NCBI RefSeq assembly: GCF_020982545.1
Contig: NZ_JAJKLK010000019.1
Span: 930,001-994,000 of the forward strand
Source: Streptomyces sp. MNU76
GTDB taxonomy: Bacteria > Actinomycetota > Actinomycetes > Streptomycetales > Streptomycetaceae
Direction: 5' to 3'
DNA length: 64,000 nucleotides
Part shown: positions 41,837 to 47,623 of the stretch, one piece after another
Layout of the letters: each line of letters begins with the position of its first letter
Numbering within the stretch: the first letter of the stretch is position 1
The notes under the pieces: model-generated
Seen by the model: the letters and a program-made list of their open reading frames with translations, nothing else
Told to the model about the DNA's origin: nothing
Database searches by the model: none
Made by a program: the position numbers and the translations under genes

Positions 41837-42168
41837 CCCTGGATGAACGGTACGAAGGCGCCACCCCGGCGCAGGGGTGGCCCCTCTATTCAGCGCACAG
41901 GGCTTCACGGAGATCGGCACCGGGGGTGTGGGTGTGGCCTATGTCACGCGGGGGGCGGTCTTCCCGCTTCGGGACGATGTGCGGCCAATGCCCGGAAGGC
42001 GGAGGGGTGATGGGAAGGGGTGTACCGGCCGCTGTGACACTTCCGTGAGGCGTGACGCAGATCAGCGTGGGGGCTGGGCGTTGGCCGGGACGGCCCTCGG
42101 AAGGCGATCCCGGCACTGACTTGGCACTGTCCCGGACAGTTCGGGGCCAGGGAGGGGAACCGCGGCGC
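41837..42168. other. Divergent region before the first ECF sigma gene
   Basis: A 332-bp region without a supported gene. It contains the inverted GCGGGGGGCGGTCTTCCCGC near 41950 and a likely ribosome site (GGAGGGG near 42151) for the sigma factor. Open frames here, on both strands, are continuations of genes or shadows. Confidence 0.4.
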
Positions 42169-42759
42169 GTGCAGGCCTACGACGGGGAGCTGGGCGCGGC
42201 CGTCGCGCGGGCCCAGGCCGGGGACGAGGCCGCGTTCGCGGTGGCGTACCGGCTCGTGCAGCCGGGGCTGCTGGGGTATCTCCGCGGCATCGTCGGGGAC
42301 GACGCGGAGGACGTCGCCTCGGACGCCTGGCTGGAGATCGCGCGGGACCTCGGACGGTTCAAGGGCGACGGCGCGGGCTTCCGCGGCTGGAGCGCGACCA
42401 TCGCGCGGCACCGGGCCCTGGACCATCTGCGGCGCCAGCGGGTCAGACCCCGGGCGACCGCGCTGGAGAACGACCTGCTGGAACTGCCCGGCACGCACAG
42501 CACCCCGGACCAGGCGCTGGAGAGCCTCTCCACCGAACAGGCCCTCGCGCTGGTCGCCCGGCTGCCGCGTGACCAGGCCGAGGCCGTGCTGCTGCGCGTG
42601 GTCGTCGGCCTCGACGGCCCCGCCGCCGCCCGTGTCCTCGGCAAGCGCCCCGGCGCGGTCCGTACCGCCACCCACCGGGGCCTGAAGCGTCTCGCCCAGC
42701 TCCTGCGGAGCGAGGGTGTGACGGATGACGGCCCCCGGACGCTGGGGGAGTCGAGATGA
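42169..42759 (+). CDS. ECF RNA polymerase sigma factor, first of two paralogues
   Basis: A 196-residue sigma-70 family factor with only regions 2 and 4. Region 2 shows AYRLVQPGLLGYLRGIVGDD and AEDVASDAWLEIARDLGRFK, with GFRGWSATIARHRALDHLRR as region 2.3-2.4. Region 4 has LPRDQAEAVLLRVVVGLDGP and the helix-turn-helix RPGAVRTATHRGLKRLAQ. GTG at 42169 is chosen where homology starts. Its stop overlaps the ATG of a membrane protein (ATGA), which fits a sigma/anti-sigma pair. The paralogue at 44126 has the same layout. Confidence 0.9.
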   Translation: MQAYDGELGAAVARAQAGDEAAFAVAYRLVQPGLLGYLRGIVGDDAEDVASDAWLEIARDLGRFKGDGAGFRGWSATIARHRALDHLRRQRVRPRATALENDLLELPGTHSTPDQALESLSTEQALALVARLPRDQAEAVLLRVVVGLDGPAAARVLGKRPGAVRTATHRGLKRLAQLLRSEGVTDDGPRTLGESR

Positions 42760-43741
42760 CCGACAGCGACGCCGGGACGCACGGCGAGAGGGAAGGGCGC
42801 GAGATGCCGTCGGGCAGGACGGAGCCGGACATGAGCGACCGGCCTGACAACGGAGAGCGGGACGACACCTCCGCTGCCTCCGACCCACCGTCCCCGAGTT
42901 CCGGGACGCCCCGCCTCCCGCCTACCCGGACACCTCGCCTGCCGCCGTGCGGGACCCCCCCTCCGTCGATTCGCTTCTCGCCGCCGCCGTGCGCGCCGAC
43001 GCGCCGGCCGACAGCGCGGGGGAGGCGCGAGCCGTGGCCGCCTTCCGGGCCGCGCGGGAGAGCGGGGGCCGCACCGCACGCACCCGGCGGCGCGACGACT
43101 GGCGGCCCAACGCACGGCGCCGCGTCCAGCTCTCCGTCCGCACCACCCTGGCCGTCCTGCTGGCCGGCCTCACCCTCGGCGGGGTCGCCTTCGCGGCGAT
43201 CGGCTCGGCCGCGCGCGGCGACAAGGAAGCCGACCGGGAGCACGGCAGCTACGGGAACCGCGAACGGCACGACCGCACCACCGACGGCGCCCCGACCTGG
43301 CCCGGCCCCGCGGACGTTCCGCGTACGGCTCCTCCGGCACCGGACCCCGCCGGCACGCCCGACCAGGACGGCGCGTCCCGGAACCCGGACGGGTCCGACC
43401 GGCGGGCCGACCGACAGAAGGACCGACAGAACGACCGCAAGGGCACGCGGGAGACGTCTTCGGGCGGCACGCGCACAGGCGACGGCACGGGCACCGGCAA
43501 CGGCGACGGCATCGGCAATGGGTCCGGCAATGGGTCCGGCAACGGCAGCGGAGATGTCGGCGCCGACAGCCGGCCGGAGTCCCCCCGGCCCGGAGAGACG
43601 AACGGGCCGACCGGACCGAAGGCGCAGGCCGCGCCGGAGTCGCGTGAGGGAACCGCATCGGAGTCGCGTGAGGAGACCGCGCCGGAGTCGCGGCAGGAGG
43701 CCGCCCCGGAAACGCCTCAGGAGGCGCGGAGAACGAAGTGA
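42756..43741 (+). pseudogene. Putative membrane anti-sigma partner 1 (frameshifted)
   Basis: Translation-coupled to the first ECF sigma gene. The N-terminal part (MTDSDAGTHGEREGREMPSG) and the rest (FRDAPPPAYPDTSPAAVRDP then SVDSLLAAAVRADAPADSAG) are in different frames; one base added at 42892-42896 (giving SPEFRDAP) joins them to about 328 residues. One membrane span (LAVLLAGLTLGGVAFAAIGS) divides a cytoplasmic side of about 140 residues from a low-complexity outer tail with GNGSGNGSGNGSG and repeated ESRE units. No zinc-binding His/Cys anti-sigma motif is present, so the role is inferred from gene order and topology. Confidence 0.65.
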
Positions 43742-44125
43742 GGCCGGCGTGCTCGCAAGACCCCCGTACTCGCAAGACACCCGGCCACTCCGCCGATGGC
43801 AACGGTCGGGGCCGCCACCCCCCACAGGAGAGGCCCCGACCGTCGCGCGGCACGGGCCGCGCGGCGACCCGTACTACCTACAGCGCCGCGTCCACGTTTT
43901 CTGTCACACCTCACCGCATCACGAGTTAGTTGCATGTTCTACGGACATGGACGCCCAGCGGTTTCAGGCCGTAACGTGCCATTCGCGCCGGATCGTGGAT
44001 GGCGGAAGACCACCACAACCATCGACGGCCCGGCACCGCACGATTCATTGAGGACCACGACCACGACAGCGAGGACCCGGTCCGCGAGAGCGGCCCGGTC
44101 GAAGCGCAAAGAGGGGCGCGCGCGG
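43742..44125. other. Region between the first anti-sigma gene and the second sigma gene
   Basis: A 384-bp stretch that holds a terminator hairpin (43802-43843) and the control region of the second sigma gene. The sigma frame is open well upstream of the chosen GTG (for example GTG near 43976 and TTG near 44047), so part of this stretch may be coding. Confidence 0.45.
43802..43843. terminator. Hairpin terminator
   Basis: A 12-bp perfect stem, ACGGTCGGGGCC (43802-43813) and GGCCCCGACCGT (43832-43843), with an 18-nt loop, 60 bp after the first anti-sigma gene. Confidence 0.7.
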
Positions 44126-44812
44126 GTGCTGGGGGACGACGCGGAGCTGACCGCCGCGGTGCTTGCGGCACAGGACGGGGACGAGACCGCGTTCCGGACT
44201 GTGTACCGCTCGGTGCACCCACGGCTGCTCGGGTACGTGCGCACGCTGGTCGGCGATCCGGACGCGGAGGACGTCACCTCCGAGTCCTGGCTCCAGATAG
44301 CCCGTGACCTGGAGCGGTTCAGCGGTGACGCCGACCGGTTCCGCGGCTGGGCCGCGCGGATCGCCCGCAACCGGGCCCTCGACCACATACGCATGCGGGG
44401 GCGCAGGCCCGCGATAGGCGGCGACGAGGCCGAGCTGACCGGCAGGGCCGCCGAGTCCGACACGGCCGGCGAGGCGATGGAGGCCCTGGCCACCGGCCGC
44501 ACGCTCTCCCTCATCGCCCAGCTGCCGCAGGACCAGGCGGAGGCGGTGGTCCTGCGGGTCGTCGTCGGACTCGACGCGAAGACCGCGGCCGCGACCCTGG
44601 GCAAGCGCGCGGGAGCCGTACGGACGGCCGCGCACCGGGGTCTGAAACGGCTCGCCGAACTGATCGGGGAGAATCCGGAGACGGCCGGTGATGCCGACCC
44701 GGAGTCCGGAGATCCGCTGGACGCCGTACCCCCACCGAGAGGGCCGCGCGCACGCGCGGCTTCGTCCGCCGGTGTGACGCATACGCGTTGGCGGACGCAG
44801 AAGGATGTGTGA
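44126..44812 (+). CDS. ECF RNA polymerase sigma factor, second paralogue
   Basis: A 228-residue ECF factor close to the one at 42169. Region 2: VYRSVHPRLLGYVRTLVGDP, AEDVTSESWLQIARDLERFS and FRGWAARIARNRALDHIRMR. Region 4: LPQDQAEAVVLRVVVGLDAK and RAGAVRTAAHRGLKRLAELI. The C-terminus adds about 40 residues rich in Pro and Asp. GTG at 44126 has GAGGGG 9 bp upstream; longer starts rich in Thr/Arg are possible. The stop overlaps the ATG of the next gene (TGATG). The pair with the first sigma factor suggests a tandem duplication of a two-gene module. Confidence 0.9.
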   Translation: MLGDDAELTAAVLAAQDGDETAFRTVYRSVHPRLLGYVRTLVGDPDAEDVTSESWLQIARDLERFSGDADRFRGWAARIARNRALDHIRMRGRRPAIGGDEAELTGRAAESDTAGEAMEALATGRTLSLIAQLPQDQAEAVVLRVVVGLDAKTAAATLGKRAGAVRTAAHRGLKRLAELIGENPETAGDADPESGDPLDAVPPPRGPRARAASSAGVTHTRWRTQKDV

Positions 44813-46139
44813 TGGCCGACGAGCAGTACAGGTGGCTCAACCGCGACGCCGCGGAGCGGCTGCTGCGTGGGGAGCCCCTCGAAGCCGTCGACGCCGACAC
44901 CCGTGACCGTGCCGCCCGGCTCGCCGAGGCGCTCGGCGCGCTGACCGCCGATGTCGCCCCGGTGTCCTCGCGGAGCCCCGAACTCCCCGGTGAGGAAGCG
45001 GCGTTGGCCGCCTTCCGCAGCGCGCGAACAGCGCGCGCGTCCGACGCGACCACGTCCGCCACCTCTGCCACCTCTGTCTCCTCCACCTCCGCCCGTTCCG
45101 CCCTCTCGTCCGACGGCGGGCGGGCCGTGGAGCCCGGCCGTGGCAGTGGCAGCCGTAAGCGCACCGCCGACGCGCCCGCCGCCGACGCGGGGCTCGTCCG
45201 CCTGGGACGTCCCGGGCGCCCGGCAGGGGTCGACGGACACCGGGCCCGTTGGGGCCGGCCGGTACGGTTCGGGCTGGTCGCGGCCGTGGCCGCCGGGATG
45301 CTCGGCGGCGTCGCGGTCGCGGTCGGCGGCGGTGCGCTGACCGCGTTCCGCGACGGCGAACCGGAACCCTCCGCCACCGTCTCCGCCGGCCAGTCGCCGG
45401 ACCGGCCGCTGCTGTCGCCGTCACCGAAAGCGCAGGACGGCGACGGCCGACGGGGGGCGTGGGGCGACACGAAACCCGAGATGACCCCGGACGGCTCCGC
45501 GCAGGGCGACGGCCCCTCCGGTGACGGCTCCGACGGCACCGACGAGGACGGGCGGACCGGGGACTCCGGGAAGAACGGCACCCCCGGTCAGGAGTGGTGG
45601 AACAAGGTCCTCTCCGCCTGCCGTGACGTCCGCGACGGCAAGGGCCTGGGGGCCGACCGTCGGCGCAGCCTCGAGGACGCGGCGGGCGGCAACGGCAAGG
45701 GGCAGCTGAAGCGGTACTGCGAGGGCGTCCTGGCCGGGGGCTCCGACTACCCCGGCACGAAGAAGCGGCCGGGCGGGGCACCGGGACGGGCCGGGGCACG
45801 GGGAGCGGGTCCGGTACGGCGGACTCAGGTGACTCGGCCGGCCGGTCCGGTGGCGGTGACGGCAGCCCGCGGTCCGGCGGCGACTCCGACGAGGACGACG
45901 ACTCCCACCGCGGCGGGCACGGCGACGGCAAGGGCAAGAACCGCCCCGGGCACGGCAAGGGCCACGGCGACGGCGGCAAGGGCCAGGGCAGTGGTCATGG
46001 CAAGGGCCACGGCCACGGCAAGGGCGGCCAGGGGAACAAGGGCGGCAAGGGCGGCAAGGGTAACGGGGGCAACGGCCACCGGAGTCAGCTCGCCTCAGCG
46101 GCGCGGACCGAAGTGGCCGTCCGCATCACCCCCTCCTGA
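44812..46139 (+). pseudogene. Putative membrane anti-sigma partner 2 with Gly/Lys/His-rich tail (frameshifted)
   Basis: Coupled to the second sigma gene. Cytoplasmic N-terminus (MADEQYRWLNRDAAERLLRG), Ser/Thr-rich linker, one span (FGLVAAVAAGMLGGVAVAVG), an acidic outer linker, then a compact segment with two Cys, WWNKVLSACRDVRDGKGLGA and KRYCEGVL. After that the frame breaks: one base added to the run 45775-45778 restores a tail of about 120 residues such as GKGKNRPGHGKGHGDGGKGQ ending in RTEVAVRITPS at 46139. The tail is strongly basic and outside the membrane, so contact with anionic wall polymers or metal is possible. Role inferred from gene order. Confidence 0.65.
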
Positions 46140-46465
46140 CCCCTCCCGACCTGTGCTTTCGCACCCGTCACGAATTCTTTCGCGGAACGGGTAACACTTT
46201 TGGCGGCCCCGGCGCAGTAATGAGTGAGCCGACTGGTCATCGGCCGTCGCACTGAGCCGGGGTTCCCCCCGTACCTACGGCTCGTGCACCTCGGCGCGGG
46301 CGGGACACGTTCCCCCGGTCCCGCCCGCGCCTCATAACCCCCGTATTTCCCCGTGGTCCCCGTGACCCCGTACTCCCCCTGACGCGCCAGGCGCCCTCCG
46401 GCTATGCGTCATGTGACGCACGTCACGAATTCTTCCGTCACCGGACTTCTGTCACCGGGCATCCA
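46140..46465. other. Convergent intergenic region
   Basis: A 326-bp gap between the anti-sigma partner 2 gene and the leftward L,D-transpeptidase gene. It holds one strong hairpin (46293-46331) and otherwise no gene. Confidence 0.5.
46293..46331. terminator. Bidirectional hairpin terminator
   Basis: A 14-bp perfect stem, GGCGCGGGCGGGAC (46293-46306) and GTCCCGCCCGCGCC (46318-46331), with an 11-nt loop, between two convergent genes. Confidence 0.8.
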
Positions 46466-47400
46466 TCACCAGTACACGACGACCTTGTCGCCGCTCCTGA
46501 CCTGGTCGAACAGCCGCGCGATCGCCGCCTTGTCCCGGACGTTGACACAGCCGTGCGAGGCGCCGTAGTACCCACGGGCCGCGAAGTCGGAGGAGTAGTG
46601 GACGGCCTGGCCGCCGCTGAAGAACATCGCGTACGGCATCGGGGTGTCGTACAGGGTCGACCAGTGGTCGCGGGACTTGAAGTAGACGCTGAAGAGGCCC
46701 TCCCGGGTCGGGGTGTACTCCGAGCCGAACCGCACCTCGACCGTCGTCAGCGTCCTGCCGTCCACCATCCAGCGCAGCGTGCGGCTCGTCTTGCTGATGC
46801 ACAGCACCCGGCCCGTCATGCAGCGCGGATCGGGTGACGCGGCCGGCTGCCCGCCGTAGGCGTACAGCTCCCACTTGCCGGGCTCCCGCGTCATGTTCAG
46901 CAGCCGCGCCCACGTCACGCTGTCCGTCTTCCCGGTCCGCGGCAGCCCCCGCTTGCCCTGGAAGCCCTTGACCGCCTGGACCGTCAGGTCGTCGTACGTC
47001 CCCGTGGGCCCCGCGAAGAGCCAGGCGACCTGCCGCAGCCGGGCCTGCAACTCGCGTACGTCGAGGCCCTCGTCGCCCTGGGACCAGAGGACCGGGGCGG
47101 GGGTGCGGGGTGGGGTGGATGTGGGGAGGGAGGCGCGGTCGTCGGGGCCTCCTCGGGCGCCCCTTTGTCGTCGTTCCCGCTTCCTCCGTTTCCGCTTCCT
47201 CGGCTCCCGCCCGCGACCTGGTCCTCGCCGCCGCCGTCGCCCTCGCCCTGCTTCGGAGCGCCGTTCGGCGTGGCGCTCCCGTCGACGCGCACGGGCTGGC
47301 GCTGGCCGCCGTGCACCTCGATCCCCTGGGCCGTGCAGGCGCCGGTCATGGCGAGTGCCGCGATCGCGGCCACCGATCTCCGCATGTCCTTGGTACGCAT
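46466..47400 (-). pseudogene. L,D-transpeptidase (YkuD) with peptidoglycan-binding domain, exported (frameshifted)
   Basis: A wall cross-linking enzyme that makes 3-3 bonds in peptidoglycan. The N-terminus (MRTKDMRRSVAAIAALAMTG then AC) is a lipoprotein-like signal, followed by a Gly/Pro-rich linker. The peptidoglycan-binding domain (ELQARLRQVAWLFAGPTGTY, VKGFQGKRGLPRTGKTDSVT) and the YkuD domain are in the next frame. The catalytic motif is HYSSDFAARGYYGASHGCVN with the nucleophile Cys. Adding one base at 47094-47097 gives PPPVLWSQGDEGLDVRELQA and a protein of about 311 residues. ATG 47400 or 47385 may be the start. It is divergent from the acyl-CoA mutase gene. Confidence 0.85.
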
Positions 47401-47623
47401 CGGGGTCCCCGTCGTCTCATGATCGGCCGCGTCCGGTCGTTCTTCCCGGACAGGTTGCCCGGACGTGAGCCGTCGCGAACAAACGGGCATGGTTGTGAGC
47501 AAGGTCCCAGCCAGGGGCACTCCACCGGACCAACGGTCGCCGCTACAGTCCGACGCCAAGGCCGTTGTACTGACGAGTAACAAGCGAGCATCCGAAGCGA
47601 CGAGCAAGACGGAGGCACACATC

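Follow-up and report, generated by a model that had tools for sequence, protein, structure and literature searches.

Tandem ECF sigma factor and membrane partner genes in Streptomyces, a likely variant of SigD/RsdA-like switches with a candidate small RNA

For many extracytoplasmic function (ECF) sigma factors of Streptomyces, the signal and the targets are unknown. Here we examine two adjacent ECF sigma factor genes, each followed by a gene for a membrane protein (its partner), in a 64,000-nucleotide (nt) stretch of DNA that we call the window (genome G000, contig 19, positions 930001–994000; the genus Streptomyces is assigned through named relatives). From 42.0 to 46.4 kb, the + strand carries in order sigma 1, partner 1, sigma 2, partner 2 and a conserved RNA-like sequence. 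Our best reading is that this locus is a variant of SigD/RsdA-like switches. It belongs to a wider family, has strong candidate promoters and may include a small RNA under sigma control. We think it quite probable that each pair consists of an ECF sigma factor and a membrane-anchored, non-zinc anti-sigma factor in the manner of SigD and RsdA, and that the sigma factor transcribes its own gene, that of its inhibitor and the small RNA. The Streptomyces comparison covers 80 named loci (L-numbers denote compared loci, L032 being S. caniscabiei, and G-numbers genomes). The 53 homologues of partner 1 (P1) and 73 of partner 2 (P2) exclude those with no recognisable start, those truncated by a contig end and, for P2, those shorter than 251 amino acids. 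The features of the locus are these:

42034..42061, + strand: candidate sigma 1 promoter, GTGAC-N17-CGCAGA, in 62/62 loci with enough upstream sequence
42169..42759, + strand: ECF sigma factor 1 (Pfam Sigma70_r2 3.8e-13, Sigma70_r4_2 2.8e-11), start uncertain
42718..42745, + strand: candidate partner 1 promoter, GTGAC-N17-CGCTGG, within the 3' end of sigma 1, in 51/63 loci
42831..43741, + strand: partner 1, membrane protein (putative anti-sigma region of the non-zinc kind, conserved start, core, one hydrophobic span)
43971..43999, + strand: candidate sigma 2 promoter, GTAACGTGCC[A/T]TTCGCG box, the box GTAACNNGCCNTT being present in 75/80 loci
44126..44812, + strand: ECF sigma factor 2 (Pfam Sigma70_r2 2e-16, Sigma70_r4_2 1.3e-10), start inferred
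44774..44801, + strand: candidate partner 2 promoter, GTGAC-N17-CGCAGA, within the 3' end of sigma 2, in 79/79 loci
44812..46139, + strand: partner 2 (TGATG overlap in 79/80 loci, structural model, homologues beside the same sigma factor in nine other families)
45589..45747, + strand: extracytoplasmic two-cysteine helical module of partner 2, from alignment and regular expression
46191..46218, + strand: candidate small RNA promoter, GTAAC-N17-CGCAGT, which fits a stricter version of the element, in 70/73 loci
46221..46336, + strand: candidate small RNA with three hairpins, the last terminator-like, ends inferred

Results

A conserved promoter-like element with constant spacing

The element GTRAC-N17-CG, for which the chance expectation is 0.2 per 300 nt, recurs with the same spacing upstream of sigma 1 (consensus TGTGACAcTTC...CGCtGaTg) and of both partner genes, and GTRACG lies at a constant 38 nt from the partner 2 ATG in 79/79 loci. 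Its occurrences fall inside sigma codons, across a sigma stop and in non-coding DNA, and because the reading-frame context differs among them, we regard the element as conserved as DNA. The spacing is identical to that of the sigma-D-dependent rsdA promoter of Corynebacterium, which stands in front of an anti-sigma gene there and is reported as GTAAC-15 nt-CTCGAT in 37/38 species (PMC6338062). A promoter-like sequence of this SigD/RsdA type (GTAAC-15-NNCG 5' of the anti-sigma gene) is found before all 79 of the 79 partner 2 genes and at 9/14 sites outside Streptomyces. In the latter set, which comprises the sigma/partner junctions described in the next section, twelve other spacings gave between 0 and 5 matches out of 14; the probability of 9/14 at the background rate is 1.8e-7, a value that is uncorrected and concerns an element first spotted by eye in the same sequences. 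Among the other five junctions, L173 and L178 have none, L183 has the element outside the tested interval, L181 is divergent, and in L179 the sigma gene follows the partner and sits where the locus ends. By eye, two more can be added, namely L183 and the divergent pair, whose element points towards the partner and stops 10 nt short of the partner ATG.

The sigma 2/partner 2 junction has a stem-loop (window 44750–44830; CGTCCGC...GCGGACG with a weaker inner stem) that is kept in relatives and encloses the promoter-like element just 5' of partner 2. Changes on both sides are seen in 4/25 of its pairs, a covariation that we do not press, as the stem overlaps both coding sequence and the promoter element.

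The sigma–partner linkage extends beyond Streptomyces

Of 98 genomes spread across the class, 20 (six of them Streptomyces) have matches to a profile of the cytoplasmic N-terminal region of the partners, which holds no sigma sequence. This sigma factor adjoins 21 of the 25 places listed by the profile, and outside Streptomyces it adjoins 14 of 17, at 119–196 bits, in 13 genomes of nine families; these 14 places hold 13 distinct sigma genes (one is common to L179 and L187). Such a sigma gene occurs in 2/17 control loci, which had been retrieved for other purposes, at 49–57 bits. The first sign of the family was G076, where sigma and partner are adjacent in the same layout. Among the 13 distant partners, ten have the motif GE...A[AV]F, 12 have a stretch with a mean hydropathy of at least 1.66, and six have the two-cysteine module. 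One match outside Streptomyces (G065, E 6e-4) lies within another kind of gene and was taken as chance.

The locus pair L179/L187, from one non-Streptomyces genome, is organised differently, with partner genes flanking a single sigma gene on both sides, and the L179 partner has three two-cysteine modules one after another.

Two duplicated ECF sigma factors

Regions 2 and 4 of both proteins exceed the Pfam cut-offs for Sigma70_r2 and Sigma70_r4_2, which places both among the ECF sigma factors and bears out the tandem sigma/membrane-partner pairs of the original prediction, made from the sequence of the window alone. Their duplication is borne out too: a genome search with sigma 2 (26 matches) returned itself at 419 bits, sigma 1 at 196 and the third match at 71. 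For sigma 1, the candidate promoter agrees more readily with a GTG start at 42169 than with the open reading frame that begins further upstream, at 42052, and some relatives have no start codon at this position. Sigma 2 varies little across the compared Streptomyces loci (mean distance 5.5%). An upstream sigma gene (>150 bits) precedes sigma 2 in 63/80 loci; four loci begin too near a contig edge, and 13 are without it.

In those 13, module 2 is kept and sigma 1 (>150 bits) is missing from the 5–6 kb upstream (L058, L059, L067, L068, L070, L073, L076, L087, L089, L090, L091, L098 and L106), which may reflect loss, insertion or rearrangement.

The best NCBIfam model for both sigmas is ShbA (NF007230), at 90.6 and 88.0 bits against a curated cut-off of 209, so that neither qualifies for that family. 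The window genome's own ShbA scores 265.7 bits; its gene (G000:C19:834500-839500, L156), some 138 kb distant on this contig, is immediately 5' of guaB with no anti-sigma gene in between. Region 4 of sigma 1 from L040 is 42–43% identical to the solved region 4 of M. tuberculosis SigD, with a root-mean-square deviation (rmsd) of 1.2–1.5 for the two best chains, and the sigma fold matches include BldN (6dxo_A; Z 10.5, rmsd 14.0 over 134). We take SCO4864 and SCO4866 of S. coelicolor to be the orthologues of sigma 1 and sigma 2, respectively. In that species, acid shock is reported to raise SCO4866, which is also up in germination, and to lower SCO4864 (PMC4367926, PMC2631018). Within the main texts searched (supplementary files lay outside the search), there is no mention of scr4864–scr4868 or SCO4868.

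The partners are single-span proteins with an outer two-cysteine module

As predicted, the protein encoded 3' of each sigma gene has one hydrophobic stretch and a long low-complexity C-terminal part. The consensus sequences of their homologues share one plan, in which a cytoplasmic helical part leads into a hydrophobic span (GGVA.AA) and a linker, with the two-cysteine module (C...AAGG..V..YC) and low-complexity sequence coming last. The P1 consensus (53 homologues) reads LEALLAAALR...EAE.RAVAAFRAAR...TRRRDDWRP before its one hydrophobic span, and the cytoplasmic consensus of P2 (73 homologues) reads AERLLRGEPLEAVD...ERLA..LGAL...ELPGEAAALAAFRKAR. In partner 2, a helical N-terminal region (residues ~1–90) is followed by the span (~152–178), the cysteine module (258–312) and the low-complexity end. 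An alignment of the module (38 rows) holds C11, G17, L28, A32, G33, G34, Y43 and C44 invariant, and AlphaFold2 predicts three helices within 258–312, with ten-residue mean pLDDT values of 91–96 over 261–310. A looser regular expression finds the module in 60/73 P2 and 44/53 P1, with none among 2520 shuffled sequences, and a stricter one in 39/73 P2 and 43/53 P1. The long disordered tail of the original prediction therefore holds for the low-complexity end, but not throughout, given the confident three-helix segment in partner 2. Its diverged outer parts are real in the window, where partner 2 has the module and partner 1 is without it. It is possible that the partners sense different signals; bearing on this, most of the examined Streptomyces have the same kind of module in both partners.

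The overlap of each sigma gene with its partner is clear for pair 2 alone. In 79/80 named Streptomyces loci, the ATG of partner 2 and the stop of sigma 2 overlap as TGATG. In pair 1, the ATGA found where sigma 1 stops shares the frame of the partner 1 core in just 15/57 loci, and the start most likely lies 72 nt downstream of the stop, at window 42831, where a conserved ATG has a stretch resembling a ribosome-binding site. In 16/57 loci (L040, L041, L049 and 13 more), partner 1 is open in the sigma 1 frame with the sigma stop between, and the spacer between the two is highly variable in length. Production of partner 1 by programmed frameshifting or stop read-through was dropped as an idea, given the conserved downstream start.

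The absence of a zinc-type motif is confirmed in every partner examined: HxxxCxxC is found in neither window partner, in none of 53 P1 or 73 P2 from Streptomyces, and in none of the 13 non-Streptomyces homologues checked, so the partners do not qualify for the zinc (ZAS) class I. The original prediction took this absence to imply a different way of holding the sigma factor, an argument that falls, since published class I domains are commonly without the motif. According to PMC7406223, it is missing from about 44% of class I anti-sigma domains, RskA and RseA are independent of it, and zinc and non-zinc groups are intermingled across the tree. What stands of the original prediction, then, is the pairs, their duplication, the missing motif and the differing outer parts; the overlap of pair 1, the wholly disordered tail and the step from non-zinc to another holding mode do not.

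No Pfam or NCBIfam family covers the partners above its cut-off. Helices are predicted in the partner models, with no confident match to the class I, II or III anti-sigma folds. We also compared distances between the four proteins over the loci that hold all the proteins compared (49, 45 and 66 loci). The partial correlation of sigma 1 with partner 1 is 0.37 against 0.12–0.25 for the other pairs of the four (49 loci), which weakly favours an association of pair 1 only. The partners likely act as anti-sigma factors.

A conserved RNA-like sequence follows partner 2

Directly after partner 2 lies a nearly invariant sequence of ~115 nt (mean column identity 89% over 40 rows, the window and 39 loci). 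It contains single-base insertions and deletions (indels) that would disrupt a reading frame. Its predicted fold has a z of −4.47 against shuffles and displays two C-rich loops, which are as invariant as the stems; covariation is near nil, with a change on both sides in 1/33 pairs, as the sequence scarcely varies. The stricter form of the element that precedes it has 130 matches on the + strand vs 9 on the − strand in 930,516 bases of loci. A model of the RNA-like sequence (R1, 40 rows) matched 9/9 further Streptomyces loci, some of them possibly from species already named, and 0/9 regions from other families. Rfam gave no match at E<=1 for 41900–47500, and for 46180–46360 at E<=10 it gave 11 matches, all far below gathering scores and none to 6C. 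Four core strings of the RNA are absent from the main texts searched (supplementary files again being outside scope). We read the sequence as a probable small RNA.

Neighbouring gene and frame breaks

An L,D-transpeptidase-like lipoprotein gene (window 46466–47385, − strand), convergent with partner 2, is present in 74/80 loci. At this locus there is no GTRAC-N17-CG upstream of it on its own strand. The L,D-transpeptidase gene lppS of C. glutamicum is reported to be sigma-D-dependent (PMC6338062).

By third-codon-position GC, window partner 1 shifts frame near 42.89 kb and window partner 2 near 45.77 kb; the end at 46139, as given in the original prediction, is that of partner 2's second frame. 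The L,D-transpeptidase gene is also split in two frames here; 36/37 relatives in which both pieces were found have them in a single frame. That three breaks fall within ~4 kb, the third in this neighbouring gene, suggests an assembly error, and the breaks are likely indels of the assembly.

Discussion

We infer the binding of sigma factor and partner, the proteolysis of the partner, the assignment of the elements to these sigma factors and the production of the RNA, from which a cycle can be proposed. The helices before the span of the partner would hold the sigma factor at the membrane. Some signal from the envelope, perhaps received through the two-cysteine outer module, would lead to destruction of the partner and so free the sigma factor, which would then act at the GTRAC-N17-CG promoters that precede sigma 1, the partner genes and the small RNA 3' of module 2. 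Transcription of the partner by the freed sigma factor would remake the inhibitor and shut off the response. RsdA of corynebacteria is reported to be cleaved by MarP and then by Rip1 (PMC11175481), and a cascade of this kind may act on the Streptomyces partners.

The closest known arrangement is that of SigD and RsdA in Corynebacterium and Mycobacterium, where an ECF sigma gene is likewise followed by a membrane anti-sigma gene, where in Corynebacterium a sigma-dependent promoter with identical GTAAC..CG spacing precedes the anti-sigma gene, and whose M. tuberculosis SigD is the protein that region 4 of the relative's sigma resembles. Here, by contrast, the partners have no PF16751 match, and there are a tandem duplicate, the cysteine module and the downstream RNA; moreover, the putative promoter in Mycobacterium precedes sigD. 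Membership of the RsdA family itself is rejected on the null results with PF16751. ShbA of Streptomyces is the nearest model for both sigmas, which differ from it in score (88–91 bits vs 266 for the ShbA of this genome) and in setting, shbA being followed by guaB with no partner between. BldN and RsbN, the latter a class III anti-sigma factor, provide a Streptomyces ECF sigma factor with an anti-sigma factor outside the zinc class, and BldN is among the fold matches of the sigmas, whereas the partners have no sequence match to RsbN in the Protein Data Bank (PDB) search. E. coli sigma E is an envelope-stress sigma factor that makes the small RNAs MicA and RybB, and the locus here would be similar in that an envelope-stress sigma factor also produces a small RNA, here a candidate identified by its sequence. 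The hairpins and C-rich loops of the candidate are reminiscent of those described for the actinobacterial 6C RNA (PMC8388888), from which it differs in having no Rfam 6C match at E<=10.

Several results weigh against a SigD–RsdA-like switch at this locus. For the partners, PF16751 (RsdA) gave no match at E<=1 with the window partner pieces and none above cut-off in six genomes; a PDB sequence search with the partner profiles against solved structures returned chance matches alone; and the fold search with the partner 2 model found nothing at Z>=5 among the 30 chains aligned, in a listing that does not include the class I fold and hence excludes nothing. A fused sigma 1–partner 1 model (first row L040) had two partner helices at pLDDT ~80, a pTM of 0.50 and no interface; it was built on 13 paired rows, with TGA read as W, from those of the 16 open-frame loci with a gap of <300 nt (three longer ones were omitted), plus 18 sigma-only and 22 partner-only rows, and was excluded from the evidence on binding. 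The partial correlation of sigma 2 with partner 2 (0.22–0.35) is close to the value for sigma 2 and an unrelated neighbouring gene product (0.23–0.26). As for the elements, the one at the sigma 1 end is missing in 12/63 loci, the box upstream of sigma 2 has a variable spacing to CG (18 here), and 5/14 non-Streptomyces junctions are without the element by the automatic test. In Rhodococcus, Nocardia and Mycobacterium, the putative sigma-D promoter is 5' of sigD and not of rsdA (PMC6338062). The genome-wide pattern has 31 matches in G000 vs 10 for the reversed control, with a similar excess in eight genomes of the same order in which partner 2 was not found, so that no regulon is defined; a degenerate-pattern scan of 21 genomes was too unspecific, with no clean regulon among the matches listed. 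Sigma 1 is also lacking from 13/80 loci, and ShbA could, in principle, use the elements.

This last point leads to the alternative that the elements are real but serve another sigma factor of the same class, chiefly ShbA, in which case the loop would not be autoregulatory. The nearness of both sigmas to the ShbA model and the presence of a genuine ShbA (266 bits) ~138 kb off on the same contig, next to guaB, speak for it; still, we hold it to be very unlikely, as the element accompanies the sigma/partner pair beyond Streptomyces as well (9/14), and one study reports hrdB and shbA as the only ShbA targets on S. coelicolor genomic DNA in vitro (PMC9205884). Just as doubtful, or slightly more so, is the idea that the partners are not inhibitors at all and are instead sigma-dependent envelope proteins or aids to the sigma factor. 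No anti-sigma fold is recognisable in them and a large share of each lies beyond the membrane span, as this idea would have it, but their tight linkage or overlap with the sigma gene, the conserved helices before the span, and a gene order and promoter geometry matching Corynebacterium sigD–rsdA all argue for inhibitors.

Two further alternatives concern the RNA and the reading frames. The conserved sequence could be merely the 3' untranslated end of partner 2 with its terminator, given that it lies directly 3' of that gene and closes in a strong hairpin. This is unlikely in our view, for it has a promoter-like element of its own in 70/73 loci, and the invariance of its loops exceeds what a terminator needs. 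It is a little harder still to believe that the partners are genuinely broken in this strain, leaving one or both sigmas unrestrained. Both frames are indeed broken here, while each partner is a single open frame in S. caniscabiei (L032); the adjoining L,D-transpeptidase gene is broken in a similar way, however, which indicates assembly indels, and third-position GC is still high on either side of each break.

If the reading of two SigD–RsdA-like pairs is correct, the conserved elements are direct, testable target candidates for two ECF sigma factors, the partner profile describes likely inhibitors, and the outer module is a candidate sensor. The case also carries the caution that a missing zinc motif alone is no sign of a new mechanism. 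The conservation of the RNA is such that loss of its function would be expected to show. More tentatively, and with the chances slightly against it, the pairs could represent an actinomycete-wide class of ECF sigma factors and non-zinc anti-sigma factors not previously described, with a two-cysteine module that can be repeated, in which Streptomyces may have added a tandem duplication and an invariant small RNA made from the sigma factor's own type of promoter, a counterpart, evolved separately, of the small RNA arm of enterobacterial sigma E.

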